The notes under the pieces are model-generated. The model was not told the origin of the DNA and made no database searches. It saw only the letters and a program-made list of their open reading frames with translations. Both the position numbers and the translations under genes were made by a program. A stretch of 64,000 nucleotides of DNA from Aureimonas pseudogalii (GTDB taxonomy: Bacteria; Pseudomonadota; Alphaproteobacteria; Rhizobiales; Rhizobiaceae). Positions 408-39,807 of the stretch are shown one piece after another; the stretch's first letter is position 1, and the number at the start of each line of letters is the position of its first letter. The stretch is from assembly GCF_014196835.1 (NCBI RefSeq), contig NZ_JACIEK010000005.1, positions 1 through 64,000 on the forward strand, in the 5' to 3' direction.

Positions 408-424
408 TGGCGGAGAGAGCGGGA
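408..424. repeat. Left attachment site core (attL)
   Basis: The 17-mer TGGCGGAGAGAGCGGGA is identical to the 3' terminal 17 bases of the tRNA-Ser gene (39791-39807) and in the same orientation. Similarity stops on both sides (next bases GCGCTTCC here, TTCGAACC in the tRNA), as expected for a strand-exchange core duplicated by integration. Confidence 0.75.
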
Positions 425-480
425 GCGCTTCCTGCCGAATCCTAGAACCCTTTGACCACGCTTCGGAAATCACCGCCGGA

Positions 481-511
481 TGGGTATTTGAGTGGGTACG
501 GACTCGGGTAC
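481..511. repeat. Candidate integrase arm-type sites, left end
   Basis: Three heptamers TGGGTAT (481), TGGGTAC (493) and CGGGTAC (505) follow one another at exactly 12-bp intervals, about 60-90 bp inside attL. The same pair with the same 12-bp phase occurs at 39724-39742 beside attR. Phased short direct repeats near the ends are typical of arm sites bound by the N-terminal domain of tyrosine integrases; binding here is inferred. Confidence 0.5.
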
Positions 512-548
512 AGGACACGGTCGGGCGTTGTCAACAATTCTGACGAGG

Positions 549-915
549 ACTCAGAGCACCGGAGCGGCGAGCATGGCGGTCGATCACGGCGACGCGGGAG
601 TCTCGGGTGCGAGATCGGCTTGCCGGGTAGCCGCAGGAGCGACGCCGAAGGCGGGGCGGGATCGACTGCTCCCGACGAGCACTCCATTCTCCCGGTAGGG
701 GTCTCCGGGACCCGTTGGCCTCCTCTCGATCCTTGGACCGTCCACGACGACGAAGAAGACGGTTCGGGCGGTGTCTAAGTGCCACCGAGGGGTCGAAGCG
801 CTCCAGACGGCTCTCCTGCGAGCCTCCAGAGCGACGAGTCCTTGTCGGGTGGCATCTTTCCACCCCGGCAAATCCTTGCGGTGTGGCAAGCATGCCCATG
901 CCGTTAGATGACCGA
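549..915. repeat. Degenerate ~365-bp direct repeat, copy 1
   Basis: This non-coding segment matches 6557-6922 along nearly its whole length. Long blocks are near identical (for example around 594-627 and 629-665) and diverged blocks lie between. The two copies bracket the AraC/ABC-exporter module. Its open frames on both strands look like high-GC artefacts, although both copies can be read on the minus strand as a similar Arg/Pro/Ala-rich peptide. No inverted termini or transposase are seen, so its mobility is unknown. Confidence 0.7.
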
Positions 916-1071
916 CGGACTGCGCTTGTCCGTCCTCGATCGGCGAACGGGCAGGCAGACGCACCTCACCTCGTCGCTCGAACGAAGGTGCCTTGAACGG
1001 ACCAAGCGTCGGGCATGACCTTTCCGCTCGAAGGGAGACGAACCGAACGGACCTTGGTATGCCTCGTGCCC

Positions 1072-2175
1072 ATGCCGTCGATCCCGTTGCCGTTCGTCAT
1101 CTCTCTGGTCCTGTGCCTCCTCCTTGTCCGCATGGTCCGGCAGGATGAAGGACGGCTCGGCCTGTTCCCGCTCCTCGTCGGGGCCTTCGCCCTTCAGGCG
1201 ACTCTATCCGGCCTGAACTGGAGCCTCGGCTGGCACCCGGTCCGGCTCTTGCAGCCGATTCTCGCGGCCGTCCTGCCGGCTCTCGCCTTCGTCGCGTTCG
1301 AGCACCTGCGCCGCAGCGGCAGGCCCGACCCGACGCGGTTCTGGCCGCATCTCGCACCCGCCGGTCTCGTCGCCGGTCTCGTCGCCCTCCGGCGCGAGCC
1401 GATCGACCTCGTCCTCTTCGCGGTCTACCTCGGCTACGGGGCCGCGCTCCTGAGGATGGGCCGGGCGGGGCCGGGGGCGCTCGCCGCGACGCGCATCGGC
1501 GACGAACGCGTCGCCCATCGGGCGCTCGTCGCCCTCGGTGCTTTGCTCGTCGCCACCGCCTTCGTCGACGCCGCCGTCTCTCTCGACCTTGCCTTCGGCG
1601 GCGGCCGGCTCGCCGGGACGATCCTCACCGTGTCCGGCGTCCTGTGGCTCGCCGCCGCCGGCTATGCCGCGACCGCCGCGGAGGGCAGCCGCCCCGCGTC
1701 CGAACCCGACGCGATCCCGGACGCGCCGACATCGTCGACATCGCCGACGGCACCGATCGAGGCGGGGATGGAGGCCGGGCCACCGGAGGACGCCGCCATC
1801 GTCACGCGGATCGATCTCCTGATGCGCGAGCACCATCTCTACCGCGATCCCGACCTGACGCTCGAACGCCTCGCCCGCCGCGCGGGCGTGCCGGCCCGCC
1901 AGATCTCGGCGGCGCTGAACCGCGTCCATGGCCGCAACGTCTCGCAGGTCGTCAACGAGTACCGGGTGGCCGAGGCGCGCAGGCGCCTCGTCGATACGCG
2001 AGAGCCGGTGACGACCGTCATGCTGGAATCGGGCTTCGGGACCAAGTCGAACTTCAACCGCGAGTTCCTGCGCGTCACGGGCATGAGTCCGAGCGCCTAC
2101 CGTCGGTCCAGCGGCGGCACCTCTGCCGAAGCGGCCCCGGCGGTCGGGACGCAATCGCCTGCGCCGACGTCCTGA
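1072..2175 (+). CDS. AraC-family transcriptional regulator with membrane N-terminus
   Basis: Predicted 367-residue protein. The first ~215 residues form several hydrophobic segments (five to seven likely membrane helices), followed by a Pro/Ser/Thr-rich linker and a C-terminal AraC-type double helix-turn-helix. The first HTH reads LTLERLARRAGVPARQISAA; the second contains VMLESGFGTKSNFNREF and ends in the usual P-SAYR pattern. This layout matches membrane-bound AraC regulators that sense an envelope signal. A start at 1015 is also open; I prefer 1072 because the hydrophobic region begins right after it. It lies 124 bp upstream of an exporter operon on the same strand and probably controls it. 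Confidence 0.8.
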   Translation: MPSIPLPFVISLVLCLLLVRMVRQDEGRLGLFPLLVGAFALQATLSGLNWSLGWHPVRLLQPILAAVLPALAFVAFEHLRRSGRPDPTRFWPHLAPAGLVAGLVALRREPIDLVLFAVYLGYGAALLRMGRAGPGALAATRIGDERVAHRALVALGALLVATAFVDAAVSLDLAFGGGRLAGTILTVSGVLWLAAAGYAATAAEGSRPASEPDAIPDAPTSSTSPTAPIEAGMEAGPPEDAAIVTRIDLLMREHHLYRDPDLTLERLARRAGVPARQISAALNRVHGRNVSQVVNEYRVAEARRRLVDTREPVTTVMLESGFGTKSNFNREFLRVTGMSPSAYRRSSGGTSAEAAPAVGTQSPAPTS

Positions 2176-2299
2176 GCTTTCTCGCAGGGGCCTGAGCGCC
2201 AAGGGGCTCCCGACCCCGCCCCGACCCCGATCGCGATCTCGGACGTCCTCGATCCTGTTCGAGGTCGAGGGCAGGGCGGCGACCCGCCATCGTCGGGGC

Positions 2300-3415
2300 A
2301 TGAACGCACACGCCCATCCCGACCCCCGCCTGTCCGAGAAGCTCAGCGCTCTCTCCCTGACCCCGGCTCCCGCCGGCTCCCGTCCGCCGAAGCATCGGGG
2401 CGGACGGACCCTTTCCATCCTTTGCATCGTCGCGCTCACCGTCGCCGCCGCTGCCGTCCCGATCCTGTCGGGAGTCCGGCTCGACGCGGTCCTCGACAGC
2501 CTCGGCTCGCGTGCCGACGAAGCCTCGCGGCCGGGTGCATTGGCCTCCGATGAGGCAACGAAGGCGACGGATACCAAGGCGACTGCAACCCGCACGCCGA
2601 CACCGCCGCCTCCCGCCGTGCCGGCCGTCACCGGCTCCGGCCATGTCGTCGCGCTGGCGGAGGCCATGGTCCATCCCCGGCGCGGCGGCACCATCGTCGC
2701 GCTCGACGCCGATGTCGGCGATCGGGTGCGGGCGGGCCAGGTCCTCCTGCGGCTCGACGATCCCGAGACGGTCTTCGCGCGGCAGGCCGCCGAGCTTGCC
2801 CAGGACCGCGCACGTCTCGTCCTCGCCGCCCGCCGTTTCGATCGGGACGAGGCGGATGCGAGCGCCCGGCGCATGGCGGGGCTGGCGAGGAGCGGCGCCG
2901 TCAATGCCCAAACGGCGATCGACACGGACGGCGCTGCCCGCCGGGCTGCCAACCTCGTCGATCAGGGCGCGCAAGACCTCGCCGGGGCCGACCTTGCTCT
3001 TGAACGAGCGCGACAGGCCGTCTCGGACCTCACCATCACCGCCCCCATCGCGGGGGTCGTGACGGCCCGGAGCGCGCGCCTCGGCGAAGCCATCCTCGCC
3101 CAGATCGACGCGCGGGGCGACGCGCCGCTCTTCACGATCACCGACCCCGATCGTCTCGGCATCGACGTCGACATCGCCGAGACCGCCGTTGCCGCCCTGC
3201 GGCCGGGGCTTCGAGGCGAAGCGGTGCTCGACGGCTATCCCGACCAACCTTTCGCCGTCGAGGTCGCACGGATCGCGCCCGTCGCCTCCGCCGAGCGCGG
3301 CACCGTGAGCTTACGCCTCACACCCCTCTCGCCGCCTCCCGGCATCCGCCCCGCCATGGCCGTGCGGGTCCGCATCGAAACGGATGTCGCCACCGCCACC
3401 AGTCAAGGACACTGA
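2300..3415 (+). CDS. HlyD/MacA-type periplasmic adaptor protein
   Basis: A 371-residue membrane fusion protein. One membrane anchor lies at about residues 36-55. A Pro/Thr-rich stretch follows, then a biotinyl-lipoyl hairpin half (GGTIVALDADVGDRVRAGQV, about 130-150), an alpha-helical hairpin rich in Arg/Ala/Asp, the second lipoyl half (ITAPIAGVVTARSARLGEAI) and a beta-barrel domain. It would link the inner-membrane ABC transporter to an outer-membrane channel or stabilise the substrate path. It is first in a run with an ATPase 4 bp downstream and two FtsX-like permeases. No TolC-type gene is nearby. The substrate cannot be told from sequence. Confidence 0.85.
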   Translation: MNAHAHPDPRLSEKLSALSLTPAPAGSRPPKHRGGRTLSILCIVALTVAAAAVPILSGVRLDAVLDSLGSRADEASRPGALASDEATKATDTKATATRTPTPPPPAVPAVTGSGHVVALAEAMVHPRRGGTIVALDADVGDRVRAGQVLLRLDDPETVFARQAAELAQDRARLVLAARRFDRDEADASARRMAGLARSGAVNAQTAIDTDGAARRAANLVDQGAQDLAGADLALERARQAVSDLTITAPIAGVVTARSARLGEAILAQIDARGDAPLFTITDPDRLGIDVDIAETAVAALRPGLRGEAVLDGYPDQPFAVEVARIAPVASAERGTVSLRLTPLSPPPGIRPAMAVRVRIETDVATATSQGH

Positions 3416-3419
3416 ACCC

Positions 3420-4136
3420 ATGAGCGCCGAGAACAGTCCCTTCATCGCCCTTTCGGGCGTCACCAAGAGCTTCGGCAGGGGGGAGGACCGGATCGCGATC
3501 TTCTCCGACCTTTCGCTCGACATTCCCCGCGGCGACTTCGTCGCGATCATGGGTCCGTCCGGGTCGGGCAAGTCGACCCTGCTCAATCTCCTCGCCGGCC
3601 TCGACGGCGTCGAAGCCGGCCGGGTGGCGATCGACGGATGCGACATCGGTGCGATGGGCGAAGGGGACCGGGCAAGCTGGCGGACGCAGACGCTCGGCAT
3701 CGTCTTCCAGTTCTACAATCTCCTGCCCATGCTGACGGCGGCGGAGAATGTCGAGCTGCCGCTTCTCCTCAAGCCACTCTCCCGCCGGGAGCGGCGCGAG
3801 CGTGTCGAGACCGTTCTAGGCCTCGTCGGGCTGTCCGAGCGGGCACGGCACTATCCGCGCCAGATGTCGGGCGGGCAGCAGCAGCGCGTCGGCATCGCCC
3901 GCGCGATCGTCGGCGACCCCGCGCTCCTCCTCTGCGACGAGCCGACGGGCGATCTCGACCGCCGCTCGGCAGACGAGGCGCTGGAGATGCTCGGCCTCCT
4001 CAACCGCGAGCTCGGCAAGACCATCGTCATGGTGACGCACGATCCCGCCGCCGCCAAAGCCGCCCGGCGCACGCTCCATCTCGACAAGGGCGTGTTCCAC
4101 GACGAGGTCGGGACCGGGGAGGGAGCCGCGCGATGA
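3420..4136 (+). CDS. MacB/LolD-type ABC transporter ATPase
   Basis: A 238-residue nucleotide-binding protein with all canonical motifs: Walker [10 protein letters not shown] (about residue 40), Q-loop in [10 protein letters not shown], signature [14 protein letters not shown], Walker [13 protein letters not shown] and H-loop VMVTHD. The sequence clearly fits the LolD/MacB/FtsE branch that pairs with FtsX-like permeases. The start at 3420 sits 4 bp after the adaptor stop; an upstream ATG at 3384 would overlap the adaptor and adds an unconserved leader. The stop overlaps the next start as ATGA. Confidence 0.92.
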
Positions 4137-5275
4137 GCTTCTTCCGCCTCATGCGGCTGAACGCCTGGCGCCGGCCGCTGCGCACCGTCCTGATGATGCT
4201 CTGCGTCGCTGTCGCCTTCCTCATCCACGGCCTCGGCGCCGGCTTCCTCGCGGGTTCGCAAGGGTCGGGGGGCGCTGACGAGAGCCGCCTCGTCGTCGCC
4301 AGCCGCAGCGGTCGGGCGCAGCCCCTGCCGCTCAGCCACTTCGCCCGCATCGCGGCCGACCCCGACGTGGCATTCGCCGCCTACTCGGCCCGCATCCGGG
4401 GCTTCGTGGAAACGGAGCGGAACGTCGCCGTCGCCAGCGCCGTCGATCCCGCTTCCATGGCCGCGACGATGGGCGACGAACTCGGCCTGACGCCGGACCT
4501 CCTCGCCGGGCTGGCGGGCGCACGCGACAGGGTGCTCGTCGGCCGGGCGCTGGCCGAGACCATGGGCTGGAGCGTCGGCCAGCGGTTCGCCTTTACGCCG
4601 TTCCAGACGATGCGGGCGGACGGCGCGAGGACCTGGAGCTTCGAGATCGCTGGGATCTTCGACGGCGCGCGGACCGACGTCGACACGCACTTCATGTTGG
4701 CCCGCTACGACTACGTGAACGCCGCCCGGGCGCGGGACCGGGACACGGTCGACGGCATCGTCGTCGTGCCGCGCCCCGGCATGTCGCCGGGCGTCCTCGC
4801 CGCCCGGATCGACGCGATGTTCGCAAGCTCCGCGGCCCCGACGCGGACGCAGTCCGAGAAGGCCTTCCTCGAGGCGCTGATCCGCCAGATCGCCGATTTC
4901 GGGCTGATCGTGACCCTCGTCACCTCGGCCGCCTTCGTCACGATCCTGATGATCGTGGTCAACACCATGGTCTTCGCGATCCGCGAGCGGACGTTCGAGA
5001 TCGGCGTCCTCAAGGTGCTGGGCTTCTCGCGCCGGCGGGTCATGGCGCTGGTGCTCGGCGAGACGCTCTTCGTCTTCCTCGTCGGGGGTCTCGCGGGCCT
5101 CGGTCTCGCCAAGGCCGGCTCGCTCCTCCTCGGCGCCGAATTCGGCCTCGCTCTGCCGCCGGTCGTCCTCGCCAAGGCCGTCGCCATCCTTCTCGCGCTC
5201 GGCCTTCTCGCGGGCCTCGTTCCCGCCATACAGGCCATGCGCATGCCCATCGCCAACGCCCTGAAGTCGAGGTAG
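4133..5275 (+). CDS. FtsX-like ABC transporter permease (first of two)
   Basis: A 380-residue permease of the MacB/LolC/FtsX type. An N-terminal membrane helix (about 15-35) is followed by a large periplasmic domain and three C-terminal helices starting near residue 258 ([20 protein letters not shown]), with the conserved [19 protein letters not shown] segment between helices. ATGA overlap with the ATPase gene indicates translational coupling. It probably forms a heterodimer with the next gene product, since both are full-length FtsX-like subunits. Confidence 0.88.
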
Positions 5276-5279
5276 CCGC

Positions 5280-6476
5280 ATGTCCTCCCTTCCACGCCAG
5301 ATGCTCGTCCTGACGAGAGCCTCGCTCGCCAGCCTGCCGCGCCGGACCGCGATCTCGCTTTCCATGGTCCTCTCGGTCGCCCTCGTCGTCGCCGTGCTGA
5401 TCGGCTTCCTGTTCATGGCCGCCGGTCTTCGCCAGACGCTCGGCACCGGCGGCTCGCCCGACGTCGCCATCGTCCTCGGCGGCGGCACTCAGGAGGTCGG
5501 CTCCAGCATTCCCCCGGAAGCCGCCCGTAGCCTTGCGGCTGCCGGCACCTCCGGCGGCATCGCGGACGATCCGGCCGGACACCTTCTCCTCTCGCGCGAG
5601 ATCCTCGTTCCGGTGGAGGCGACGGGCGTGGACGGCACGTCCCGGATGATCGCTCTACGGGGCATGGAGACGGCCGGCCCGGCCCTGCGCGCAAGCGCGT
5701 CGATCGGCGAAGGTCGCGTCTTCGCGCCGGAATCGCGCGAGATCGTGGTCGGCGCCCGTCTCGCCCGCGATCTCGGCGGCCTCGTGCCGGGGAAGACGAT
5801 CCGCCTCGGCCCCGTCGACTGGACCGTCGCCGGCATCCTCTCGGCCGACGGCGGCATGGCGGAGTCCGAAATCTGGGCCGACCTCGATGCCGTCCGCTCG
5901 GCCTTCGACCGTCTGGGGGAAATCCAGACGCTGCGCGCCCGGCTCGCCGGGCCGGACGGCCTCGCCACGCTTCAGGCCTCCTTGCCGACGATCTCGACGA
6001 CACCGTTGACCGTCGTCTCCGAGGCCGAGTTCCTGGCGGGCCAGTCGGCGCGGACGGAGCGCCTCGTCACCCTCTTCGGCTGGCCGATCGCGCTCCTCAT
6101 GGCGGTCGGCGCAACGGCGGGCGCGCTCAACACGATGATGAGTTCGGTCTCCGACCGTTCGGTCGAGATCGCGACGCTCCGCGTCCTCGGCTTCAGCCGC
6201 GTGGCAGCCTTCACCGCGACCTTCACGGAGGCGGCGCTGCTCTCGCTTGCCGGAGGCCTGCTTGGCGCCGTCGCGTCCTGGGGGATCCTCGACGGCTGGC
6301 AGGCCTCGACGCTTGGAGCCAACGACACGCAACTGGCCTTCCGGCTCAGCGTCACGCCTCTCGCCATGCTTCAGGCCGGGACCTTGGCCCTCCTCGTCGG
6401 ATGCCTCGGGGGGGCGCTGCCCGCCTTCGCGGCCACGCGGCTGCCGCTCGTCTCGGCGCTACGGGGCAACGGCTGA
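5280..6476 (+). CDS. FtsX-like ABC transporter permease (second of two)
   Basis: A 398-residue paralogue of the preceding permease. An N-terminal helix lies at about 25-45, the periplasmic domain extends to about 255, and three C-terminal helices follow, with [21 protein letters not shown] as the conserved interhelical segment. Starts 4 bp after the preceding stop. Adaptor, ATPase and two permeases make a complete export or lipoprotein-extraction type complex. The following sequence is the second copy of the ~365-bp repeat, so the module ends here. Confidence 0.88.
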
Positions 6477-6556
6477 GGTGTCCGGGACTTGTTCGCTACG
6501 TCGTACCGACTTGGCGCTCGGCTGACAGAAGGTTGCCGAGTGGGTCCACCGAAGGA

Positions 6557-6922
6557 ACTCAGAGTACCGGAGCGGCGAGCATAGCGACGGCATCGCCGGC
6601 GACGCGGGAGTCTCGGGTGCGAGATCGGCCCTCGGGGTAGCCGCAGGAGCGACGCCGAAGGCGGGGCGGGACCGACTGCCCCCGACGAGCACGCCGCAAC
6701 CCCGTCAAGGGTCATCCCTGCCTCGTTGGCCTCCTCATGCGCTTCGGCGTTCCGGCAGGGCGACGAGAGCCGTTCCGGGGTGTCCGAGTGCCGCCGAGGG
6801 GTCGAAGGGCTTAAAACGGCCTTCCTGCGAGCCGCCTGAGCGACAAGTCGGAGGCGGGTGGCACTTTCCTGCTCCGGCGATCAACGCGACGTGGCAGGAC
6901 CGCCCATGATGTCAGACGGCAC
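6557..6922. repeat. Degenerate ~365-bp direct repeat, copy 2
   Basis: Matches 549-915 in the same orientation, with blocks of near identity (around 6600-6634 and 6637-6673). It fills the space between the exporter operon and the 3' end of the next minus-strand gene. No coding capacity is evident. The arrangement suggests the AraC/ABC module entered, or can leave, by recombination between the two copies. Confidence 0.7.
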
Positions 6923-7720: not shown

Positions 7721-8191
7721 TCAGACAGCCGCGAGGCTCCGCTTGCCCGTTCCCCGCGCCGCGAACCGCCCGGCGAGGGTTCCGCCCTCCGCTCCGGGTT
7801 CGCCGGACACGGCGGCGAGAAGACGCCGGCCGCGCGCGCGCCAGTCCGTCAGGCAGCGCGACGGGGCGCGATCGGCTTCGAGGTAGAGGCGTCGCCATGC
7901 GCTGAGGTCGTCGTCGGCGAGGGTGGCGAAGACGGCCTGGAGAAGGTCGTCGCGCGCAATCGAGAGGTCCCGGCCGAGGGTCCCGCACCATGGCTCCGAG
8001 GGCTGACGGACGCGACGCCACGCGCGGCCAGACGTAGTGGCCGTCACTTCGTCGGCGGCGAGCCACGCTCCGAGGCGGTCGTCGTAGACCGCCCACTCGG
8101 TCGCGCCACGGCCAGCGGCGCGCTCGCGGACGTACCGCCGCAGAGTGTTCGCGTCCCGGCGGGATTCGAGAGCGTCCGCGATGCCGGTCAT
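7721..8191 (-). CDS. Small protein of the mobilisation operon
   Basis: A 156-residue Arg/Asp/Ala-rich protein beginning MTGIADALESRRD, with no signal peptide or membrane segment. It contains a repeated motif style (LADDDLSAWRRLYLEADRAP, LTDWRARGRRLLAA) also seen in the upstream gene (LPDWRERGRALLAR), so the two may be distant paralogues. The start at 8191 overlaps the previous stop as ATGA. It is the last gene of the relaxase operon. Function is unknown; it may be a mobilisation accessory. Confidence 0.6.
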   Translation of the reverse strand: MTGIADALESRRDANTLRRYVRERAAGRGATEWAVYDDRLGAWLAADEVTATTSGRAWRRVRQPSEPWCGTLGRDLSIARDDLLQAVFATLADDDLSAWRRLYLEADRAPSRCLTDWRARGRRLLAAVSGEPGAEGGTLAGRFAARGTGKRSLAAV

Positions 8192-24037: not shown

Positions 24038-24042
24038 GGCTC

Positions 24043-30151: not shown

Positions 30152-30382
30152 GTCGCCTCCGAGTCGAACCTCAAGTAGCATGCGCGTGCGTCCCGTCCAA
30201 CGAGATCGGCGGGTCATGCTTTCCCGTCGCCCTTCTCTACCTCGCCAGTTCGCAGGCGTGCGCAGATGGGACTGGTTGACTCGCCTTGCCGGATGTCGTG
30301 CGGTGCGTGCAGCGGCGATCGACGTTCGGGACACCGGGCGGCGAAACGCTTGGCTCGTCCGTCATCCAACCGAAACGTGCGC

Positions 30383-33031
30383 ATGCTGACCCCGACCGAG
30401 ATCTACGACAATGTTGAGGCATTAGCCTCCAAGCGTCCCGAGGGCGCCGAGTTCGGTCTCGAACTGATGGAAGCCGTCGGCGCTCCGCGCGCGACCATCA
30501 CCAGGCTTCGGGAGGAGGCGGCGAGCGGGACCTTCAATTGGACGCGCATGCTGCGGTTCGAGGCGGTTGGACAGGGCGATGCCGGCCCGGCACTCGACCG
30601 GATGCGGATCGATGCCGAAGGTCGTCCGAAGGCCAAGCGTCCCCGTATCCTGCTCGCCTACGATGGCGAGGTGGTCGCCGTGCGCGATACCAAGATCGGC
30701 GACGAGCAAAGGGTCGGCCTCGACGCGCTCGCCTACGAAGCGGACATCCTGTTTCCGCTAGGCGGACATGAACGCCATGTTCCGGACCCCGAGCGGCTCG
30801 CGGACGTTCGTGCTACCAAGCACCTGTCACGCCTCTTCGACGCGGTGCGTGACGCGAACCCAGGCTGGAACACCTCCCGCGATCGGCACGCGCTGAACGT
30901 GTTCATGGCGCGTCTCCTGTTCTGCCTCTTCTCCGACGACGTCGGCATCTTCGATAAGGACGCCTTCGAGACAGCCGTCCAACAGTCGACGCGCCCCGAC
31001 GGGTCGGATCTGAAGGAGTTCCTCGAAGGCGCCTTCGACCACATGGATACCGACCCGAGCGCTGGCCCGCGGCCAGCTCGCGGATGGTCCAAACTCCCCT
31101 ACGTGAACGGAAGCCTCTTCACCGAAGTCAGTCCCGTGCCGACGCTGGACGGGCGGTGCCGCCGCCATCTCCTCGACTGTGCGCGTCTCGACTGGCGGGA
31201 CATCAACCCGGACATTTTTGGCTCCATGCTCCAAGGCGTGGTGGACACGGAGAAGCGCGGCGAGCTGGGGATGCACTACACATCGCCGAGCAACATCATG
31301 AAGGTGCTTCGGCCAATCCTTCTCGATGACCTGAACGCCGAACTGGACCGCGCTGGGGCGAACAAGGAACGCCTTCGAGCTTTCCTGAAGCGCCTTGCCA
31401 ACGTGCGTGTCTTCGACCCAGCCTGCGGGTCGGGCAACTTCCTGATCATCGCCTACAAGACGCTCCGAGAGATGGAGATGGAGGCGTTTAAGCGTCTCGG
31501 TGAACTGCCCCATGACGTCGTGACGCTCGATGGCTTCTTCGGCTTGGAGATCGACGATTTCGCCTGCCAGACAGCTCGGCTCGGCCTCTGGATAGCGCAG
31601 TACCAAATGGACGAGCTGTTCCGGAAGGAACTCGGCCGTACCCGACCCTTCCTTCCGCTGAGCCAAGCAGGACGGATCACACACGGCAATGCCGCTATGG
31701 ACGACTGGCTCATTGCCTGCCCCGCCAAAGCCGGAAGCGAGACGGTTCTGGTCGGCAACCCGCCATTCAAAGGTTCGAAGCACACCTCGCCAGCCCAGCG
31801 GGAAGACATGAAGGCCGTGTTTTCGGGGCGTGTTCCGAACTCGGGCGAACTCGATTACGTCGCGATCTGGTTCCTCAGAGGAGCCGACTATGCGAAAGCG
31901 ACGGGCACACCCTTTGCGCTCGTCTCCACCAACTCGATCGTCCAAGGCGCGTCCGTCTCGACGCTCTGGCCACACCTCCTGGATGGGCTGGTGATCCGCT
32001 TCGCACACCGCTCATTCAAATGGTCGAACCTTGCGTCGAAGAATGCAGGAGTTACCTGCGTCATCGTCGGCCTCGGCGCTGCCACGCAAGCCACCAAGGG
32101 TCTGTATGACGGCGACACGGTGCGGCAAGTCGACCTGATAGGCCCCTACCTCGCTCCAAACGTGACGACTATCGTCTCCAAGCGATCTCGGCCGGTCGCG
32201 CCAGACCTGGGCCAAATGGTGTTTGGCAACATGCCGAACAACGGCGAAGCCTTGCTCCTCGATCGCGGTGAACGCGATGACCTCCTCCATGCTCATCCGG
32301 AAGCAGCACGGTTCGTTCGTCGGCTCTACGGAAGCCAGGAGTTGATGAAGGGCATCGAGCGCTGGTGCCTGTGGGTGCGTCCGGAGGAGGTCGCTGTGGC
32401 TCGTGCAATCATTCCATTGGAAGAGCGGTTTCAGAGAGTGCGCGAGCTACGCCTCGCAAGTACAAGGTCACAGAGCGTCCGCCTTGCGGAGGTTCCTTGG
32501 GCGTTTGACCCTCAGAACGAAGCGGCATCCCACACCATCATGGTGCCGCGCGTTTCCTCCGAAAACCGCATCTGGTTGCCAGTCGATGTCATGGACGAAA
32601 CGGCTATCGTCCACGATCGCCTTTTCGCTCTCTACGATGGAGAAATCTGGCAAGCCGCGGTTCTCTCTTCACGTCTCCATCGTCTTTGGCTCGAAACTGT
32701 CGGCGGACGATTGAAAGAAGACCCTTCCTACTCAAACCAGCTCGTGTGGAACACCTTCCCCTTGCCCGGCCTCACGGATCATCGGAAGGCGGAACTTGAG
32801 GAGCACTGGTGGGAGATTGACCGCGCTCGGAAGGAAGCAGGCTTCGGTCGAACGCTAGGCGACCTCTACGTCCCGAAGACGATGCCCGCCGACTTGCGTC
32901 GTGCCCATGAGGACCTCGATGCGACGGTCGAGAAGATTTTCGGTGCCCGGCGCTACCGTTCGGATGCTGATCGAATTGAGCATCTCCTCCAGCTTTACGA
33001 AGCGGCGATCGAAGGAAAGGGCGGACGATGA
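30383..33031 (+). CDS. MmeI-like adenine DNA methyltransferase
   Basis: An 882-residue enzyme. An N-terminal domain of ~150 residues is followed by a helical spacer (ALNVFMARLLFCLFSDDVGI), the N6-adenine methyltransferase core with motif I VFDPACGSGNFLI (about 353-365) and motif IV VLVGNPPFKG (about 457-466), then a target-recognition region and a C-terminal helical part (SYSNQLVWNTFPLPGLTD). This is the MmeI/type IIL architecture, but the N-terminal domain shows no D-x(n)-ExK nuclease motif; cleavage is presumably done by the partners. ATGA overlap with the helicase gene. The start could be a few codons earlier. Confidence 0.85.
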   Translation: MLTPTEIYDNVEALASKRPEGAEFGLELMEAVGAPRATITRLREEAASGTFNWTRMLRFEAVGQGDAGPALDRMRIDAEGRPKAKRPRILLAYDGEVVAVRDTKIGDEQRVGLDALAYEADILFPLGGHERHVPDPERLADVRATKHLSRLFDAVRDANPGWNTSRDRHALNVFMARLLFCLFSDDVGIFDKDAFETAVQQSTRPDGSDLKEFLEGAFDHMDTDPSAGPRPARGWSKLPYVNGSLFTEVSPVPTLDGRCRRHLLDCARLDWRDINPDIFGSMLQGVVDTEKRGELGMHYTSPSNIMKVLRPILLDDLNAELDRAGANKERLRAFLKRLANVRVFDPACGSGNFLIIAYKTLREMEMEAFKRLGELPHDVVTLDGFFGLEIDDFACQTARLGLWIAQYQMDELFRKELGRTRPFLPLSQAGRITHGNAAMDDWLIACPAKAGSETVLVGNPPFKGSKHTSPAQREDMKAVFSGRVPNSGELDYVAIWFLRGADYAKATGTPFALVSTNSIVQGASVSTLWPHLLDGLVIRFAHRSFKWSNLASKNAGVTCVIVGLGAATQATKGLYDGDTVRQVDLIGPYLAPNVTTIVSKRSRPVAPDLGQMVFGNMPNNGEALLLDRGERDDLLHAHPEAARFVRRLYGSQELMKGIERWCLWVRPEEVAVARAIIPLEERFQRVRELRLASTRSQSVRLAEVPWAFDPQNEAASHTIMVPRVSSENRIWLPVDVMDETAIVHDRLFALYDGEIWQAAVLSSRLHRLWLETVGGRLKEDPSYSNQLVWNTFPLPGLTDHRKAELEEHWWEIDRARKEAGFGRTLGDLYVPKTMPADLRRAHEDLDATVEKIFGARRYRSDADRIEHLLQLYEAAIEGKGGR

Positions 33032-35154
33032 ACGTTCTTGCCGATACGACACTGCACTACGCCGCCAACGGCTCGTCGAAGCTTACGGACCCCCTCGGCA
33101 TGAGGGCCATGCAGAGGCGTGTATGGGACGTGCGCGACGCCCGTTACATCCTGGTGAAATCGCCGCCGGCCTCCGGCAAGTCGCGCGCGGCCATGTTCAT
33201 CGCGCTGGACAAGCTCAGGAACCAAGGGCTGCGCAAGGTGATCGTGGCGGTTCCGGAGCGGTCGATCGGCGCCTCCTTCCGCGATACGAAGCTTTCGGCC
33301 GGGGGATTTCCTGACGACTGGAAGCTCGACCTAGACCTCTGCGGCATTGGCTCCGAGACAGGGTCCAAGGTCCGCGAACTGGTTGCCTTCCTTGGCTCCG
33401 ACGTCGGAACGACGGCCCTGTGCACCCATGCCACCCTTCGGTTCGCGTTCCGCGAAGCGAACCTTGAGGCATTCGACGGCTGCCTCGTGTGCATCGACGA
33501 ATTGCACCATGCGTCGAACGACGAAGACAACCGTCTCGGCAACTTTCTACGCGGGCTGATGGACCGCGGAAGCGCCCACGTGCTTGCGATGACCGGGTCC
33601 TACTTCCGAGGCGATGGCGAGGCGATCTTCCATCCGGACGACGAGGCTCGCTTCGAGAAGGTCATCTACACCTACTACGAACAGCTCAACGGCTACGAGC
33701 ACCTGAAGGAGCTGCATATCGGCTTCCGCTTCTATCAGGGCCGGTACCTCGATGCGATCGGCGATGCCCTCGACCCTCAGCTCAAGACCATCGTCCATAT
33801 CCCGCATGTCGGCTCCTCGGAAGCGGCGGTCGACAAGATGTTCGCGGTCGACGCGATCATCTCAGCGCTCGGCGAGCCGTTGGGGCAGGATGCCGCGACG
33901 GGCTTCGAGAGGGTTCGGGCCGGCCGGCGGGTGCTGAAGGTTGCCAACCTCGTCGACGACGGCCCCGGCCGTGAAAAGGTCATGGCTTCCCTGCGCAACG
34001 TGCGCAAGCGCGACGACGTCGACGTCATCATCGCGCTCGGCATGGCCAAGGAGGGTTTCGACTGGATCTGGTGCGAGCACGTCCTGACCGTCGGCTATCG
34101 AGGCTCGTTGACGGAGATCGTCCAGATCATCGGCCGGGCGACGCGCGATGCCCCGGGCAAGACCTCCGCCCGTTTCACGAACCTCGTTTCGGCGCCCTTT
34201 GCGAACGACGACGCGGTGTCGCGCGCCGTGAACGACATGCTGAAGGCGATTTCCGTTTCGCTCCTGATGGAACAGGTCATGGCGCCGGTCTTTCGCTTCC
34301 GGACCTTCAAGGGCGCCGACGAGTTCGACGGCACGCCAGCGGGCGACGGGCAGCGCGTTCCGGTCACCAACATGGGCGAGATCGAGATCGTCGGAATGCC
34401 GCCGGTCGACCGGGACGCGGCAAGGGTCATCGAGACCGACTTCCCCGACCTCTTTGCCGACGTCCAGTCCGATCCCCGCACGATGACGGTGATGATCAAT
34501 CCGGACGATCACCATGCCGATGTGATCTACGACATGGTCGTGACGGATGTGATCCGGACGCGGTACCCCGGTTTCTCCGAGGAGCAAGTCAGTGACGCCA
34601 CGACCCTCTTCGGCATCCGCTCGGGGCTGGCGCGCGCCGTGAACGAGGAGCCAGACGTGATCCACACCGGATCACCCGAGTCGGAGGGAAGCACCTCTTC
34701 GCTGTTCGGCGAACCGTCATTGGAGGCCGGGACAACAACACCGGACCGCAAGGGTGGTTTGGGTGCAGGGGACCGTTTCGTACGCGACACGCGACGCTTC
34801 ATCGACGTTCGGGAACTTCAGGTCGATCTACTGGGTAGCCGTCGGGAGTTCGACGACGCCTACGAGCTTCTTTCCAAGGCCCTGAGCGAGGAGGTGTTGG
34901 CGCGGCTGCACGGCGAGGTTCGGGCCATGAAGGTCACGATGTCCCAAGACGAGGCTGAGAAGCTCATGCCGCGTATTCGTGAGTTCATTTCACGGGAAGG
35001 ACGCGAGCCGAACCTGAACTCGCCGAACGGCCGCGAGGTGCGCCTTGCCGATGGCCTCGCGTTCCTCAGACGGCTTTCGCGCCAACGTCGGGCGGACATG
35101 GGCGGTGCCGACGGCGCGACGACGGGGCAGCCCGGAGCGAGCGTGAATGTCTGA
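33028..35154 (+). CDS. SF2 DEAD/DEAH-type helicase of a restriction-like operon
   Basis: A 708-residue helicase. Walker A is VKSPPASGKSRAAMF (about 47-60), motif II is VCIDELHHASNDEDN (DELH), and the second RecA domain ends in motif VI QIIGRATRDAPGK. The C-terminal ~270 residues are specific and include a proline/serine-rich stretch around 540-570. The motor is most like the translocase part of restriction and DISARM-type helicases. It lies between the methylase (4-bp overlap) and the GIY-YIG gene (8-bp overlap), so the three proteins are made from one coupled message. Confidence 0.85.
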   Translation: MNVLADTTLHYAANGSSKLTDPLGMRAMQRRVWDVRDARYILVKSPPASGKSRAAMFIALDKLRNQGLRKVIVAVPERSIGASFRDTKLSAGGFPDDWKLDLDLCGIGSETGSKVRELVAFLGSDVGTTALCTHATLRFAFREANLEAFDGCLVCIDELHHASNDEDNRLGNFLRGLMDRGSAHVLAMTGSYFRGDGEAIFHPDDEARFEKVIYTYYEQLNGYEHLKELHIGFRFYQGRYLDAIGDALDPQLKTIVHIPHVGSSEAAVDKMFAVDAIISALGEPLGQDAATGFERVRAGRRVLKVANLVDDGPGREKVMASLRNVRKRDDVDVIIALGMAKEGFDWIWCEHVLTVGYRGSLTEIVQIIGRATRDAPGKTSARFTNLVSAPFANDDAVSRAVNDMLKAISVSLLMEQVMAPVFRFRTFKGADEFDGTPAGDGQRVPVTNMGEIEIVGMPPVDRDAARVIETDFPDLFADVQSDPRTMTVMINPDDHHADVIYDMVVTDVIRTRYPGFSEEQVSDATTLFGIRSGLARAVNEEPDVIHTGSPESEGSTSSLFGEPSLEAGTTTPDRKGGLGAGDRFVRDTRRFIDVRELQVDLLGSRREFDDAYELLSKALSEEVLARLHGEVRAMKVTMSQDEAEKLMPRIREFISREGREPNLNSPNGREVRLADGLAFLRRLSRQRRADMGGADGATTGQPGASVNV

Positions 35155-36238
35155 TATCGACTATCTGAACGACCCGCTCCTCTTCACGCCCGACGAGAAG
35201 CCGAAGGCTGCTCGGACGCCCGTCGTCGAGAGGGCTGCCGAAGTGCTGGCGCGTATCAACGCATACGTCGATGAGATGGGCGTCGAGCCAGTTTCGACAA
35301 AGGGCAGGAGCGTGCGCGAACGCATGCTGGCGAACGAGCTTGCTGGCTTGCGAGCCTCTCGCGTCGATCTGGCCGGCCTTGAGGTCTTCGACGCACATGG
35401 CTTGGTCTTCGGGGGCCAGAAGCCGACTGATCCCTTGGATGACCCGCTCCTGGCAGGTGGGGACGACATCTTCCAGGTGCGCGAAAGCCTGAAGCCGAAG
35501 GCCGAACCCGACTACGTCGCCGACCGACGTCCCTGTCCGGACTTTGATCGGTTCCGGTCGGCCTTCGACGCCGTTCGCCAAGCCGTCGAAGAAGGAAGCC
35601 GACGACCGCAACCGTTCCATCAGGAGCGCGTCGAGCTGGGCGAGTTCTTCGTCCTCAAGGGGCAGCTCGTTCACGTCGCCGACGTGAGGGACGACCACCG
35701 CCGCAACGGCAAGCCCGACGCCCGCCTTAGGGTCATCTTCGACAACGAGACCGAGTCCAACCTCCTGATGTCCTCGCTCGTCCGCCGTCTTTATGAGGAC
35801 AAGGATGCGCGAAGGATCGGTCAGACAAGTGCAGGACCGTTGTTCGAGGGTGCCCATACGGGGTTCGTGTACGTGCTACGGTCTCTCTCAAGCCGTCCCG
35901 AGGTGCGCGGTCTCCTGAAGGTCGGCACCACCGCGGGCGCCGTGGAGGACAGGATCGCGCGGGCCGAAACGCAGGGCGCGTTCCTGTTCGCCCCCGTCAG
36001 GATCGTCGAAACCTACGGCCTTGTCGGCTACTCCGCAAAGGAAGCCGAACGCTTGGTTCACGAAACCCTCCGACCATTCCACGTGGCCTTGAAGGTTACG
36101 GGACCCGACGGACGGTCCTTCAACGCCACAGAGTGGTTCCGGACGGACACGGAGACCATCGCCGCCGCTGTTCGGCATTGCTTTCCGCACAAGGGCAAGC
36201 GGGCCGGAAACGCCCCCGTCGAAGTTGATGAGGCTTAG
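35147..36238 (+). CDS. GIY-YIG nuclease of the T5orf172/MUG113 type
   Basis: A 363-residue protein. The C-terminal domain has the GIY-YIG scaffold: FVYVLRSLSSRPEVRGLLKV then GTTAGAVEDRIARAE (the second tyrosine position is replaced in the LLKVG step, as is usual in this subgroup), with the catalytic-type Glu in KEAERLVHETL and the terminal TEWFRTD. The N-terminal ~230 residues are specific, containing a DPLLAGGDDIF-type acidic segment and a beta-rich domain with GEFFVLKGQLVHVADVRDDH. It overlaps the helicase gene by 8 bases. Inferred: the cutting subunit of the operon. Confidence 0.8.
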   Translation: MSDIDYLNDPLLFTPDEKPKAARTPVVERAAEVLARINAYVDEMGVEPVSTKGRSVRERMLANELAGLRASRVDLAGLEVFDAHGLVFGGQKPTDPLDDPLLAGGDDIFQVRESLKPKAEPDYVADRRPCPDFDRFRSAFDAVRQAVEEGSRRPQPFHQERVELGEFFVLKGQLVHVADVRDDHRRNGKPDARLRVIFDNETESNLLMSSLVRRLYEDKDARRIGQTSAGPLFEGAHTGFVYVLRSLSSRPEVRGLLKVGTTAGAVEDRIARAETQGAFLFAPVRIVETYGLVGYSAKEAERLVHETLRPFHVALKVTGPDGRSFNATEWFRTDTETIAAAVRHCFPHKGKRAGNAPVEVDEA

Positions 36239-36490: not shown

Positions 36491-37888
36491 ATGCGCGCGG
36501 TCGATCTTTTTTGTGGTGCCGGCGGGATGTCGCTTGGCCTGAAGCGTGCCGGGTTCGATATCGTCCGTGCATATGACGCGAACGGCGAAGCGCTTCGCGT
36601 GCACAGAGCGAACCTCGGGACGTCGGCCGAGCGCGTCTTTCGGGTCGCTCGTCACCGCAAAGCGGATCTGGCGAACCTGCTGGAGATGGCGCCGACGATC
36701 GCGGAGTTCCATCCCGACATCATCGTGGGCGGGCCTCCTTGTCAAGATTTCTCCTCGGCGGGGAAGCGAACCGAAGGCCGAAACGCCAGCCTGACGCTCG
36801 GCTTCGCGATCGCGATCGTGACGGCCAGGCCGACGTGGTTCGTCATGGAAAACGTCCCGCGCGCCCGGAAAACCCAAACCTATTCGCGTGCCCGCGCTCT
36901 CTTCGTGAAGGCCGGCTATGGCCTCACGGAGGTAGTCCTCGACGGCAGTCGCTATGGCACACCTCAGATGCGCAAACGATTCTTCTCGATTGGTCGCCTT
37001 GGCGAGGCTGACGGGTTCCTCGAGTCCGCCCTAGCCGATGCCGCTGCTCCTCGACGGATGTCAGTCCGGGATGCGCTGGGCGACGATGTGGGTATCCACC
37101 CCGGCGGGAACCACCCGCCCGAGGCCCGCGCCTTCTTCATGCGTCCGTACACCGGACATTCGGGGGTTCGATCGATCGACCTTCCGTGCCCGACGCTCCT
37201 GCGCAGCGCGCACGAGGGGCCGCAGAACTGGTACAAGGACCACGAGCGGGACATGGGGCCGTCGGCGAACATTCCCCCGCTGCCGATGGATATACTTTCG
37301 CGCATCCAGGGTTTCCCGGCGGATTGGAACTGGCTCGACATTCCGGCGAGCCGGAAACGGATGTTGATGATCGCGAACGCGGTTCCGCCGGCGCTCGCCG
37401 AAGCGGTCGGGCGCGCGATCCTTGCCCGTTCGCGAGGGGAGACGATCCCGACGACCGAGAAGGCGTTCGACAAGTGGCTTCAGAAGGGCCGCAAGGGCCT
37501 CAAAGACCAAGCGCTCCGGAACCGCCGCTTGAGCCTCAAGAAGGCGCGCCGTCTGTTGGGCGGTCGGGTCGTCGCCGATATTGACGCCGAAATCGCGCTG
37601 CTCGAGAAGGCGAAGGGCTTCGCGGAACTTTCCGTCCGGTCTCGGTCCGAACTGCGCGGAGCGCTGCGCTCCCATGCGAAATGGCGAACTGAGGTCGCCG
37701 CGGCGAAGGCGTTGAAGGTCGAGCGCAAGCTATATGACGGGCTGACCAAAGCCGAGTTCAACGCGCGAGCTCAGGATGACGCGGGCCACAAGGAGGAGCA
37801 CGTTCCCTTCAACACGAGGGTGGCCGCGTCGCTTGAAGCTGGGCGAGCGAGCGCAAAGAAGCCGTCCTGTATGGTTGAGGCATCCTGA
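36491..37888 (+). CDS. C5-cytosine DNA methyltransferase
   Basis: A 465-residue Dcm-type enzyme with the ordered motifs I DLFCGAGGMSLGLKRAGFD (5-23), IV GGPPCQDFSSAGKR with the catalytic Cys at about 85, VI MENVPRARK, VIII QMRKRFFSIG, and X near ANAVPPALAEAVGRAI. The C-terminal ~140 residues form an unusual basic helical extension (KAFDKWLQKGRKGLKDQALR, KKARRLLGGR). It is on the same strand as the adenine methylase operon, 252 bp away. It may add a second modification that protects host DNA from this operon or from the EVE-nuclease, or be a separate orphan. Confidence 0.88.
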   Translation: MRAVDLFCGAGGMSLGLKRAGFDIVRAYDANGEALRVHRANLGTSAERVFRVARHRKADLANLLEMAPTIAEFHPDIIVGGPPCQDFSSAGKRTEGRNASLTLGFAIAIVTARPTWFVMENVPRARKTQTYSRARALFVKAGYGLTEVVLDGSRYGTPQMRKRFFSIGRLGEADGFLESALADAAAPRRMSVRDALGDDVGIHPGGNHPPEARAFFMRPYTGHSGVRSIDLPCPTLLRSAHEGPQNWYKDHERDMGPSANIPPLPMDILSRIQGFPADWNWLDIPASRKRMLMIANAVPPALAEAVGRAILARSRGETIPTTEKAFDKWLQKGRKGLKDQALRNRRLSLKKARRLLGGRVVADIDAEIALLEKAKGFAELSVRSRSELRGALRSHAKWRTEVAAAKALKVERKLYDGLTKAEFNARAQDDAGHKEEHVPFNTRVAASLEAGRASAKKPSCMVEAS

Positions 37889-37916
37889 TCCCCCTCCCGA
37901 ACTAGCGTTCGGCTCC

Positions 37917-37939
37917 GACCCTCCCCCCTGGGGAGGGTC
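37917..37939. terminator. Terminator between methyltransferase and integrase
   Basis: GACCCTCCCC pairs perfectly with GGGGAGGGTC around a three-base loop, lying between two convergent genes. A bidirectional terminator is likely, although U-tracts are short. Confidence 0.65.
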
Positions 37940-37985
37940 TCACGCTCCTCGCGGGACGTTGCCGGGTTCGCCCGGCTCGCGCCGG

Positions 37986-39710
37986 CTACGCCGTCACTCC
38001 CCGGTCGCGTAGATGGTCCGGAACGCGCTTCCGCTTGAGAGGTCGCTTCGGGCCGCGCGTGTCGCGGTAGGGCGACAGGTCTAGCCCCTCGGGCAACGAC
38101 ATCGCCGCAAGCACCTCGACCTCGTCGGCTCGAAGAAGCTTCGAACCGTAGGACTCCTCGACGGTCTTGAAGGCGTGCCCTGTCTGCATGCTTGACGTTC
38201 GGGGATCGACCTTGGCGACGCGCAAGATGTCCTTCGCGCTGTGGCGCGACGAATGGAATACCGTCGCGAGGCGTGTGTGCAGCCCGTAGATTCGAAGTCG
38301 CGTCCCTTGGCGCTTCGAGGCCGTGTCGGCGGGATCGGAGATGTTGCGATGGAGGTGCGGGAACACCCACTCGCCGTTGCGGCGCGCCTTTGCATAGGCG
38401 ACAAAGCCGACATCCACGAGTTCCTGGTGCAGAGCAAAGAGGCGACGCGAGGTCACGTTCTTGATATCGCGGGTCTCAGCCTTCCCGCCGATCGTCAAGT
38501 CGGTCGTGAGGTTCGCGACCCACAGGCCCGGCCGGATTTCCTGGATGTCGCCGCCCTGAAGGTAGGCCAACTCGCCGATGCGGGCGCCGGTGAGGGTCCC
38601 AAGCAGCGGGAGCCAGTAGTCGTCGGGGCGGGCCTCCTTCGTGGCGTGAAGGAACCACTTGTTCAGCGCCTCGACGGTGAACGGTTCGCGCACTATCGCC
38701 TTCGGTGCATGGCCGGGCGCGCTGACGCGAAGGTCCGCAAATGGGGAGCGGACGTTGTGCTCGACCGCGATCCAGCGAAAGACACCCGCGACGGCGGCGA
38801 CGTAGGTCGCGATCGTCGTTTCGGACTGGCAGGCCGGAACAGGCTTTCCGGCCTCGCGCAAGGCGGCGATCTTCGCCACGATCTCCGGCGAGGTGGAGCC
38901 CCTGAACGCTCGTAGCTTCGTCCAGTTGGTGGGCAGGTCGGCCAAGGTCTTCGCGAAGGTCTTCAAGTCGCGCGGAACGTAGTCCGTGATGGCGCGGTCC
39001 CCGGCGAGAGCGACGAACTCGCGGCACTTAGCTACCAAGCCGTTCGCGTACTCAAGGCGCTTGCCGTCCTCCAACAGGTCCGCGAGATAGGCGTCCAGGC
39101 ACGCGCTGAGTAGTAGGGGAAGGGCTTGGGGCGGCGACTCCGGCAATGGCGGTGGTGCGACGGGAGCCACAGCCACGACAGCAGAGGGCGCGTCGATGCG
39201 TTGGCCGACAGTCAACGCCCGATCGACGGTCCACTCGAAGTTCGCCCGTTCCGACTTCCATGCGACGTCGTCCTGGGCCAGCGCCGCGCCGACGATGTCG
39301 AGCCTCGTCCGGATCGACTTCAGCGCCTTTCGGCGGGCATCCTGCGCGGCGGCGGCTGAGCGATAGTGCGCGGCGATTTCCCGCGAGTCGGGGTCGTCGC
39401 GCGCGCCGTGCTGATCGGCCTCCGACCATGCGGACTCGGCCTTCAGCCCGGCCCATCGAATCCCGCGGTCGAGCGTGTCCAGTTCGGCAGCGAGGGCTGT
39501 CAGGCTGCGGGTCAGGGTTTCGCGGTCGGCCATGCCAGAGTCCCAAAGCGCGTGACAGTGAGCCGCGAGCCTAGTCGCTCTGCGTTGAGCTTCCGTTGCC
39601 GTCAGCGGACCAAGCGAAACGCGGATCGGCGAACGCCCGAAGGATTCGCGATGAAGGGTTGGGACCCGCAGTTGGAACCGATAGCCAGATGGTCGCCGGG
39701 AAAGGTGCAT
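37986..39710 (-). CDS. Tyrosine recombinase (integrase of the element)
   Basis: A 574-residue phage/ICE-type integrase. The start MHLSRRPSGYRFQLRVPTLH is that of the DUF6538-type arm-binding N-terminus. A helical middle with a proline-rich linker (about 190-215) is followed by a core-binding domain and the catalytic domain with Arg in TGARIGEL (about 376), Lys in DIKNVTSRR, H-x-x-R in FHSSRHS (about 487-490), His in TGHAF (about 512) and Tyr in EESYG (about 521). It is transcribed away from the tRNA-Ser whose end is the attachment site. It would catalyse integration and excision of the 408-39807 element. Confidence 0.92.
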   Translation of the reverse strand: MHLSRRPSGYRFQLRVPTLHRESFGRSPIRVSLGPLTATEAQRRATRLAAHCHALWDSGMADRETLTRSLTALAAELDTLDRGIRWAGLKAESAWSEADQHGARDDPDSREIAAHYRSAAAAQDARRKALKSIRTRLDIVGAALAQDDVAWKSERANFEWTVDRALTVGQRIDAPSAVVAVAPVAPPPLPESPPQALPLLLSACLDAYLADLLEDGKRLEYANGLVAKCREFVALAGDRAITDYVPRDLKTFAKTLADLPTNWTKLRAFRGSTSPEIVAKIAALREAGKPVPACQSETTIATYVAAVAGVFRWIAVEHNVRSPFADLRVSAPGHAPKAIVREPFTVEALNKWFLHATKEARPDDYWLPLLGTLTGARIGELAYLQGGDIQEIRPGLWVANLTTDLTIGGKAETRDIKNVTSRRLFALHQELVDVGFVAYAKARRNGEWVFPHLHRNISDPADTASKRQGTRLRIYGLHTRLATVFHSSRHSAKDILRVAKVDPRTSSMQTGHAFKTVEESYGSKLLRADEVEVLAAMSLPEGLDLSPYRDTRGPKRPLKRKRVPDHLRDRGVTA

Positions 39711-39723
39711 AGGAAGGCCGCCC

Positions 39724-39742
39724 TGGGTACGCGGCTGGGTAC
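39724..39742. repeat. Candidate integrase arm-type sites, right end
   Basis: TGGGTAC (39724-39730), GCGGC, TGGGTAC (39736-39742): two copies 12 bp apart, matching heptamer and phase of the left-end set at 481-511. Lie between the integrase start and attR. Confidence 0.5.
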
Positions 39743-39790
39743 ATCAGCCGTTTGGGCGGAGATTTCGTAAGCAAAATCAACGGGTTGCGA

Positions 39791-39807
39791 TGGCGGAGAG
39801 AGCGGGA
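39791..39807. repeat. Right attachment site core (attR)
   Basis: Last 17 bases of the tRNA-Ser gene, identical to 408-424. The tRNA stays intact because the element end supplies the same sequence. Confidence 0.75.

Follow-up and report, generated by a model that had tools for sequence, protein, structure and literature searches.

A probable integrative and mobilizable element with a lone TraY gene at tRNA-Ser(GGA) of Aureimonas pseudogalii

The first 64,000 nucleotides of contig NZ_JACIEK010000005.1 of Aureimonas pseudogalii (the window; the contig is referred to as C5, the genome as G000) hold a 39,383-bp segment inserted at a tRNA-Ser(GGA) gene. At one end of the segment lies a gene for a tyrosine integrase; further inside, a relaxase gene is found beside a gene for TraY, a VirB6-class subunit of conjugation channels that stands here without the rest of its channel; an exporter cassette and several defence genes are also present (Table 1). 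The combination of relaxase and lone TraY suggests an integrative and mobilizable element (IME) that may remodel the transfer channel of a helper.

The boundaries of the segment are given by a short duplication. The sequence TGGCGGAGAGAGCGGGA is present at 408-424 and again at 39791-39807, on one strand and with zero mismatches, the two direct copies being spaced by 39,383 bp. As a preliminary description of this DNA had proposed, the 17-mer is the 3′ end of tRNA-Ser(GGA) and recurs in direct orientation. It includes the encoded CCA, and the two copies are the sole such pair: the exact 17-mer occurs twice in the own genome (5.0 Mb, 53 contigs), both times at an end of the element, the reversed pattern occurs nowhere in it, and no further match is found in the window even at three mismatches. 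Since shuffled windows often match at that tolerance (mean of 0.69 matches; two or more in 18 of 100), it is the exactness of the repeat that counts. The integrase gene, as likewise proposed, stands beside the intact tRNA gene, at a distance of 80 bp. The same description took both ends to be fixed to the base; as the two copies are identical, the crossover can be placed only to within 17 bp.

The tRNA-Ser(GGA) surroundings were compared in 19 of 20 relatives of the same genus (all except G019) and, in the own genome, at a second tRNA-Ser. In two of the 19 loci (G010 and G016), sequence resembling window positions 96-407 lies directly beside an uninterrupted tRNA-Ser, which constitutes the empty site; the alignments score 36 and 21 standard deviations, respectively, above 60 base shuffles, compared with -1.2 to 3.4 for the remaining 17 loci, and the aligned block is 236 bp from the tRNA in the window, 237 bp in G010 and 238 bp in G016. 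The contiguous junction of tRNA and 1-407-type sequence anticipated for relatives by the preliminary description is present in these two genomes, by way of 96-407; position 1 of the window is also position 1 of contig C5. Because genes of the DUF6538/Phage_integrase type adjoin tRNA-Ser in three of the 19 loci (G002, G015 and G020) and at the second own copy, tRNA-Ser is a recurrent integration target in these genomes. At that second copy (G000:C7:24066, L075), the 17-mer has no exact duplicate in the 13 kb fetched. The tRNA-Ser(GGA) of the window itself has an A-U acceptor pair (5 and 68 in the numbering used here) in place of the G-C pair seen in each of the 19 copies from the same genus, and further changes in the variable arm; its att variant is common to A. 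endophytica.

The integrase looks intact: an active tyrosine recombinase is expected to have R377, K417, H486, R489, H512 and Y521, and none of these residues varies among the 12 integrases aligned (14 chosen loci were given, of which 11 yielded an integrase match). Its closest counterparts come with the same kind of ends. Aureimonas endophytica (NZ_BMIQ01000004.1; Hyphomicrobiales), the single locus found in the genome contig database, carries an orthologous integrase (70% identity) beside tRNA-Ser(GGA) in a 9.5-kb element with the identical 17-mer at both ends, GGGTA-type sites and TTGTCAACAAT in the left arm and a TGGGTAC pair in the right arm; over 131 bp, the corresponding element end and window 408-538 share 71% identity, with the sites largely kept. 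Integrase, attachment (att) cores, arms and target are thus alike in the two elements, whereas the smaller one has other cargo and another MobA/MobL relaxase. In G208, of another genus of the family, an integrase of 74-75% identity lies beside tRNA-Ser(GCT), whose own 17-mer is duplicated 11.7 kb away; a second right arm indicates a tandem arrangement. At E 1e-20, 25 of the 247 family genomes have an integrase match, and apart from the own genome, identity rises above 43% in G208 only; among 72,556 plasmid records, no relatives of the integrase or the relaxase were found at E 1e-30. In the circular form, the integrase gene would adjoin the arms and the core, so that all of these could be exchanged as one module. 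The near-palindrome TTGTCAACAAT is also seen near the ends of elements in different targets (window 528-538; L156; G131/G016, G208).

Taken together, the exact repeat pair, the empty sites and the sister element with its conserved module argue that the 39,383-bp segment is one site-specific unit, and the boundaries given in the preliminary description are right. Its claim that the duplication shows all of the content to be one mobile unit holds in so far as a single integrase-borne unit is bounded by the tRNA-Ser duplication; “shows” was too strong a word, the content being a mosaic and mobility an inference.

The transfer region of the element centres on a relaxase that is here called MOBQ-type and not a MobQ equivalog. 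Between its gene and that of an 89-aa protein lies a predicted origin of transfer (oriT), a perfect stem followed by TAA(T/C/G)(T/C)GCGC, a pattern which nic sites of the RSF1010/Ti type resemble. The pattern together with its stem is present in 13 of 19 lone-TraY loci (564 kb in total), once per locus and with 10 different stem sequences; when the loci were replaced by Markov-random sequences, ten sets in all, a whole set gave zero or one match; no such pattern was found in C15, another contig of the own genome, or in A. endophytica. The 89-aa protein is probably a relaxosome accessory factor: one of its orthologues has a weak match to TraD (E=0.014), the window copy being without a credible family match. 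On the other side of the relaxase, the gene at 7724-8190 is present in 9 of 11 loci of one comparison and in 8 of 14 of another, these 8 being the loci with a MOBQ-type relaxase. A 0.4-kb noncoding repeat was considered as oriT and dropped, as the oriT-like hairpin sits between the relaxase and the 89-aa gene instead.

The large 710-aa gene next to the relaxase belongs to the DotA/TraY family. It scores 190.2 bits against a curated cut-off of 100 for TIGR04346, along positions 22-656 of the 656 of the profile, and for this reason a Rep function considered for it was rejected; a Rep-like gene had been listed, without being named, in the preliminary description, and none of the proteins scanned falls into a Rep family. 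The single sequence finds DotA weakly in the PDB (E 0.011), and a 15-row profile finds it, as 9ngy, at E=6.8e-32. Compared with six orthologues over 660-670 codons, dN/dS is 0.13, 0.17, 0.31, 0.33, 0.36 and 0.32, and no stops are seen; these values indicate purifying selection, and with the single clade described below and the adjacency to relaxases they argue that the gene is not debris.

Among the 247 genomes of the family, TIGR04346 is found in 24 and the I-type marker DotH in 9. In a tree of 27 TraY proteins, 16 lone ones form one clade (99/98) and nine labelled as linked to a type IV secretion system (T4SS) fall into another group (100/100); G263 carries this label with DotH on another contig. 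The clade members are accompanied by a MOBQ-type relaxase in 11 cases and by a MobV-like protein of 382-388 aa beside TraY in five; the G246 representative of the latter matches MobV (E 2.8e-9, below the cut-off), and the other four are 48-71% identical. These five loci (G029, G094, G098, G150 and G246) represent a second locus type, with a MobV-like gene, a 224-aa-type gene and TraY, and two of them (G098 and G246) also carry a C5 methylase, as does the window. In 397 genomes of the order, six match the lone-TraY profile (E 1e-30) and six have DotH, the own genome alone being in both sets. Four full-length TraY proteins were new there (G492, G548 and two in G587), all with MOBQ-type relaxase matches beside them; these were placed by profile similarity, outside the tree. 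A relaxase gene thus lies within 2.5 kb of the lone TraY in all 20 cases, that is, the 16 clade members and the four from the order survey. The counts leave aside G030 and G079 (long branches of unsure place), G430 (a partial match) and a fragment row of G094, and the 20 do not include G016, G006 and G001, which carry the backbone and lay outside the surveyed samples.

The relaxase region of the window recurs in the same order in elements of G208 (two), G131, G067, G016, G006, G001 and G007, and the own genome also has it on contig C11. For G131, G067 and one G208 locus, similarity to a coding sequence ends after AAAGGHNLLMV, the half with GPPGSGKSM lying on the other side in G131 and G067; in C11, only the second half is present. 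We take the interrupted gene to be comM/yifB from these two motifs; a search for comM was unspecific. The comM elements (G131, G067, one of the two in G208 and probably that of C11) share relaxase, 89-aa protein, TraY and 0.4-kb repeat with the window element and differ in their split target; the one member tested, in G208, has a large serine recombinase instead of a tyrosine integrase. Since these elements share the backbone and the G208 recombinase is of the large serine type, one transfer backbone travels with different integration modules, tyrosine at tRNA-Ser and large serine in the comM member tested. Exchange of integration modules between IMEs and integrative and conjugative elements (ICEs) has been suggested before (PMC5704250).

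With an integrase and direct-repeat att sites of its own, its own relaxase, a predicted oriT and no complete mating-pair formation system in the open reading frames (ORFs) scanned, the segment is best read as an IME. Within the same ORFs, the complete T4SS and coupling protein of an ICE are lacking: no coupling protein or T4SS part besides TraY is found among the 31 element ORFs scanned with Pfam (21 were scanned with NCBIfam; left out were, for example, the coding part of 4137-5279 and 14574-14828). A VirB6-class subunit without the rest of the channel is moreover what characterizes channel-remodelling IMEs by gene content, and 11511-13643 encodes one. The reading that we prefer, and hold to be fairly probable, is that the element inserts its own TraY into the I-type channel of a helper, as SGI1 does with TraG. 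It may operate in the following manner: The tyrosine integrase would have recombined the core of the attachment site on the circle (attP) with the 3′ end of tRNA-Ser(GGA); this would restore the tRNA and create the second 17-bp copy at 408, a step that the sequence strongly supports. After excision, the MOBQ-type relaxase may nick the predicted oriT at about 10985-11016, and the nicked DNA would leave through the channel of an I-type helper conjugation system. By analogy, the TraY of the element would replace that of the helper, yielding a channel that favours the IME and escapes the TraY-directed entry exclusion of the helper, comparable to SGI1 TraG and IncC plasmids. Anti-phage systems and exporter would be cargo.

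Known systems provide the precedents. SGI1 encodes TraN, TraH and TraG, of which the island TraG disables the entry exclusion of the helper (PMC5389848); like the element described here, it is integrated and carries its own distant versions of channel subunits (PMC5389848). It differs by its F-type subunits, IncC helper and trmE target and is grouped with IMEs devoid of a relaxase (PMC5704250), whereas the window element has an I-type TraY, a MOBQ-type relaxase and tRNA-Ser as target. GIsul2 and an IncP island carry TrbJ/K/L, TrbL being of the VirB6 class (PMC5704250). The IncP island resembles the window element in having its own relaxase and a VirB6-class subunit (TrbJ, TrbL and perhaps TrbK); its relaxase is MOBP and its subunits are T-type, and GIsul2 has no relaxase (PMC5704250). 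The lone-TraY family, in contrast, combines a MOBQ-type or MobV-like relaxase with an I-type TraY alone. In IncI plasmids, ExcA recognises TraY (PMC12365149); the protein belongs to the same family, TIGR04346, but is part of a complete transfer system there. DotA, the counterpart of VirB6, forms a pentameric protochannel (PMC12857230). NBU2 is likewise an IME with a tyrosine integrase at a tRNA-Ser 3′ end, but it is a Bacteroides element with a MOBP relaxase, and TraY is not named for it in the available text (PMC5704250).

Other explanations differ in what they make of the boundaries and of the lone TraY. The 17-bp match might be due to chance, or be a tRNA fragment unrelated to integration; 17 bp is short, yet a unique pair in 5.0 Mb, the empty site in two relatives and the conservation of arms and cores in two sister elements make this scarcely credible. 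The 39 kb could also combine two or more elements lying side by side at tRNA-Ser, with the exporter stretch (about 425-6550) left over from a separate one. The exporter has a copy of the 0.4-kb repeat on either side, GC varies along the segment and the tandem arrangement in G208 involves the same integrase type; a third att core is nevertheless missing even at three mismatches, and left and right arms form one integrase module as in A. endophytica, which renders stacking quite improbable.

The gene itself might be the idle leftover of a decayed I-type conjugative element in an ordinary IME. Decayed conjugative elements are common, and no other T4SS gene was detected among the scanned ORFs, but purifying selection, a single clade and the full-length family match speak against it, and so do relaxases of two types beside 20 of 20 lone TraYs: an idle gene is unlikely to have been preserved whole, and by itself, in such a number of elements. 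We consider this explanation improbable. Alternatively, the lone TraY could act as a decoy, spoiling the I-type channel or keeping I-type elements from entering, instead of aiding export of the IME; its company of anti-phage genes, its strong divergence from the TraY of C15 and the lack of detected partner subunits would suit this role. As TraY adjoins relaxase genes, outside the defence cluster, and as SGI1 and the IncP island have VirB6-class subunits that were shown or proposed to aid transfer, a decoy is not very likely.

Several observations weigh against the remodelling of a helper channel or against the assignments on which it builds. The relaxase misses the NCBIfam MobQ equivalog cut-off of 200 bits (166), and relaxases of the MobA/MobL type are frequently matched, in 71 of the 247 genomes of the family at E 1e-20; the integrase scores below the curated Phage_integrase cut-off. 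Six of the 19 loci lack the oriT pattern, namely one G208 locus (with a near match in the alignment) and the five of MobV type, one of the 20 adjacent relaxases (G587:C45) was matched in pieces only, and the TraY-like genes of G030, G079 and G430 could not be classed. In the A. endophytica element, TraY was not detected, though a relaxase is present. The link to a helper is weak: of the 14 genomes in the family survey whose lone TraY falls into the clade, the own genome is the only one with DotH. The TraY of C15 gives no match to that of the window at E 1e-6 and shows 21-24% identity to lone TraYs over matches longer than 600 aa. The helper could thus be of another type than I. Excision, transfer, channel remodelling and the role of TraY are inferred from sequence and analogy.

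Contig C15 (87 kb, of which 70 kb were examined) encodes DotH, DotI, a TrbI/DotG-like protein, a VirD4-type coupling protein and TraY, together with a weakly VirB4-like ATPase, a MobA/MobL relaxase with helicase domains and a ParA-like protein; this I-type transfer system is a possible helper of the element. Compared with 21 loci at E 1e-6, C15 proteins match only TraY, the relaxase and a resolvase, apart from one more protein matched in two of the loci. Next to the genes for I-type transfer, a Fic protein and a relaxase (C15:37041-38723 and 39068-42934) each have a BID-domain match, below the BID cut-off.

Tentatively, and with slightly less than even confidence, we extend the helper analogy to a family: Hyphomicrobiales conjugation satellites with relaxase and lone TraY may parasitise I-type systems by swapping the VirB6-class subunit that determines exclusion. 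Such satellites would bring precisely the subunit by which the helper recognises itself, and, taken with the F-type case of SGI1 and the T-type one of the IncP island and GIsul2, the same strategy would have evolved for three channel classes; if the lone TraY remodels an I-type channel, theft of a VirB6-class subunit would be a general rule of conjugation satellites. The boundaries alone are ordinary, as tRNA-borne IMEs are well known. Neither a lone TraY in an IME nor a family with relaxase and lone TraY was found in the literature searched, most subscription papers being outside its reach, and TraY does not occur in the available text of two reviews (PMC5704250, PMC11389934). Because the I-type system of C15 and the two lone-TraY elements of C5 and C11 share one genome, the proposal is directly testable here.

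Table 1. Features of the window at the tRNA-Ser(GGA) insertion (positions in the window; a dot denotes no strand)
Feature	Position	Strand	Evidence or remark
Multi-copy sequence at contig start	1-95	.	100% matches: end of G000:C11 (1-95), C8 (9-95)
Unique flank outside the element	96-407	.	Homologous to sequence beside uninterrupted tRNA-Ser in G010, G016
Distal att core	408-424	+	Exact 17-mer; kept in A. endophytica
Left att arm	425-538	+	GGGTAT at 482, GGGTAC at 494 and 506, TTGTCAACAAT at 528-538
Noncoding repeat copy 1, 0.4 kb	549-956	+	
AraC regulator and HlyD/ABC/FtsX (MacB-like) exporter cassette	1015-6476	+	Pfam for four ORFs; 4137-5279 unclassified
Noncoding repeat copy 2, adjoining relaxase backbone	6557-6920	+	
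Conserved small gene downstream of relaxase	7724-8190	-	Frame of 7724-8380; no Pfam match
MOBQ-type relaxase	8750-10792	-	PF03389 150 bits, cut-off passed; NCBIfam MobQ 166 bits
Predicted oriT	10985-11016	+	6-bp stem, 9-nt loop, then ATAATCGCGCC
89-aa protein, overlaps traY by 4 bp	11245-11514	+	Conserved across lone-TraY loci
Lone TraY/DotA, VirB6-class channel subunit, 710 aa	11511-13643	+	TIGR04346 190.2 bits
6-kb Gabija block and two unknown genes	19411-25470	.	GajA 22325-24037, 709 bits; GajB 24019-25440, 600 bits (PADLOC)
Small serine recombinase, start estimated	27874-28440	-	PF00239
PDC-M32B and PDC-M32A, candidate defence pair	28602-30334	-	PADLOC
MmeI-like type IIG restriction-modification protein, DEAD helicase-like, T5orf172 nuclease-like; overlapping genes	30266-36238	+	
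C5 cytosine DNA methylase	36491-37888	+	
Tyrosine integrase, 574 aa	37986-39710	-	DUF6538 and Phage_integrase
Right att arm	39711-39790	+	TGGGTAC at 39724 and 39736; kept in G208 and A. endophytica
Att core inside tRNA 3′ end, integrase-proximal	39791-39807	+	Exact 17-mer; identical core in A. endophytica
tRNA-Ser(GGA), integration target, intact	39791-39880	-	ARAGORN; Rfam 57.3 bits

The content of the element is a mosaic, with an exporter between 0.4-kb repeats and a Gabija block in common with C11. One copy of the repeat is also found beside the relaxase backbone in eight of nine related loci (G007 being the exception). In the Gabija block, GajA and GajB are adjacent, as expected of this system. 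The 6-kb block is 95% identical to G000:C11 (about 140243-146301), compared with 67-88% for the other stretches shared by the same two elements, which suggests that a defence block was recently exchanged between two co-resident elements of one genome.

The overlapping genes at 30266-36238 may form an undescribed restriction system; PADLOC matches of the helicase-like and T5orf172 nuclease-like proteins are weak only. Scanned proteins of the 13.7-22.2 kb region have no match in Pfam, PADLOC or NCBIfam in the scans that included them, and PHROGs yielded nothing useful for 10 proteins. A 0.1-kb stretch at 37906-38009, considered as an end of the element, was rejected: it is noncoding, relatives have it at several sites, and the sequences next to it are unrelated from one site to another, in the manner of a dispersed repeat. 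At 15950-17008, tandem diverged copies of ~0.5 kb span two related small genes.

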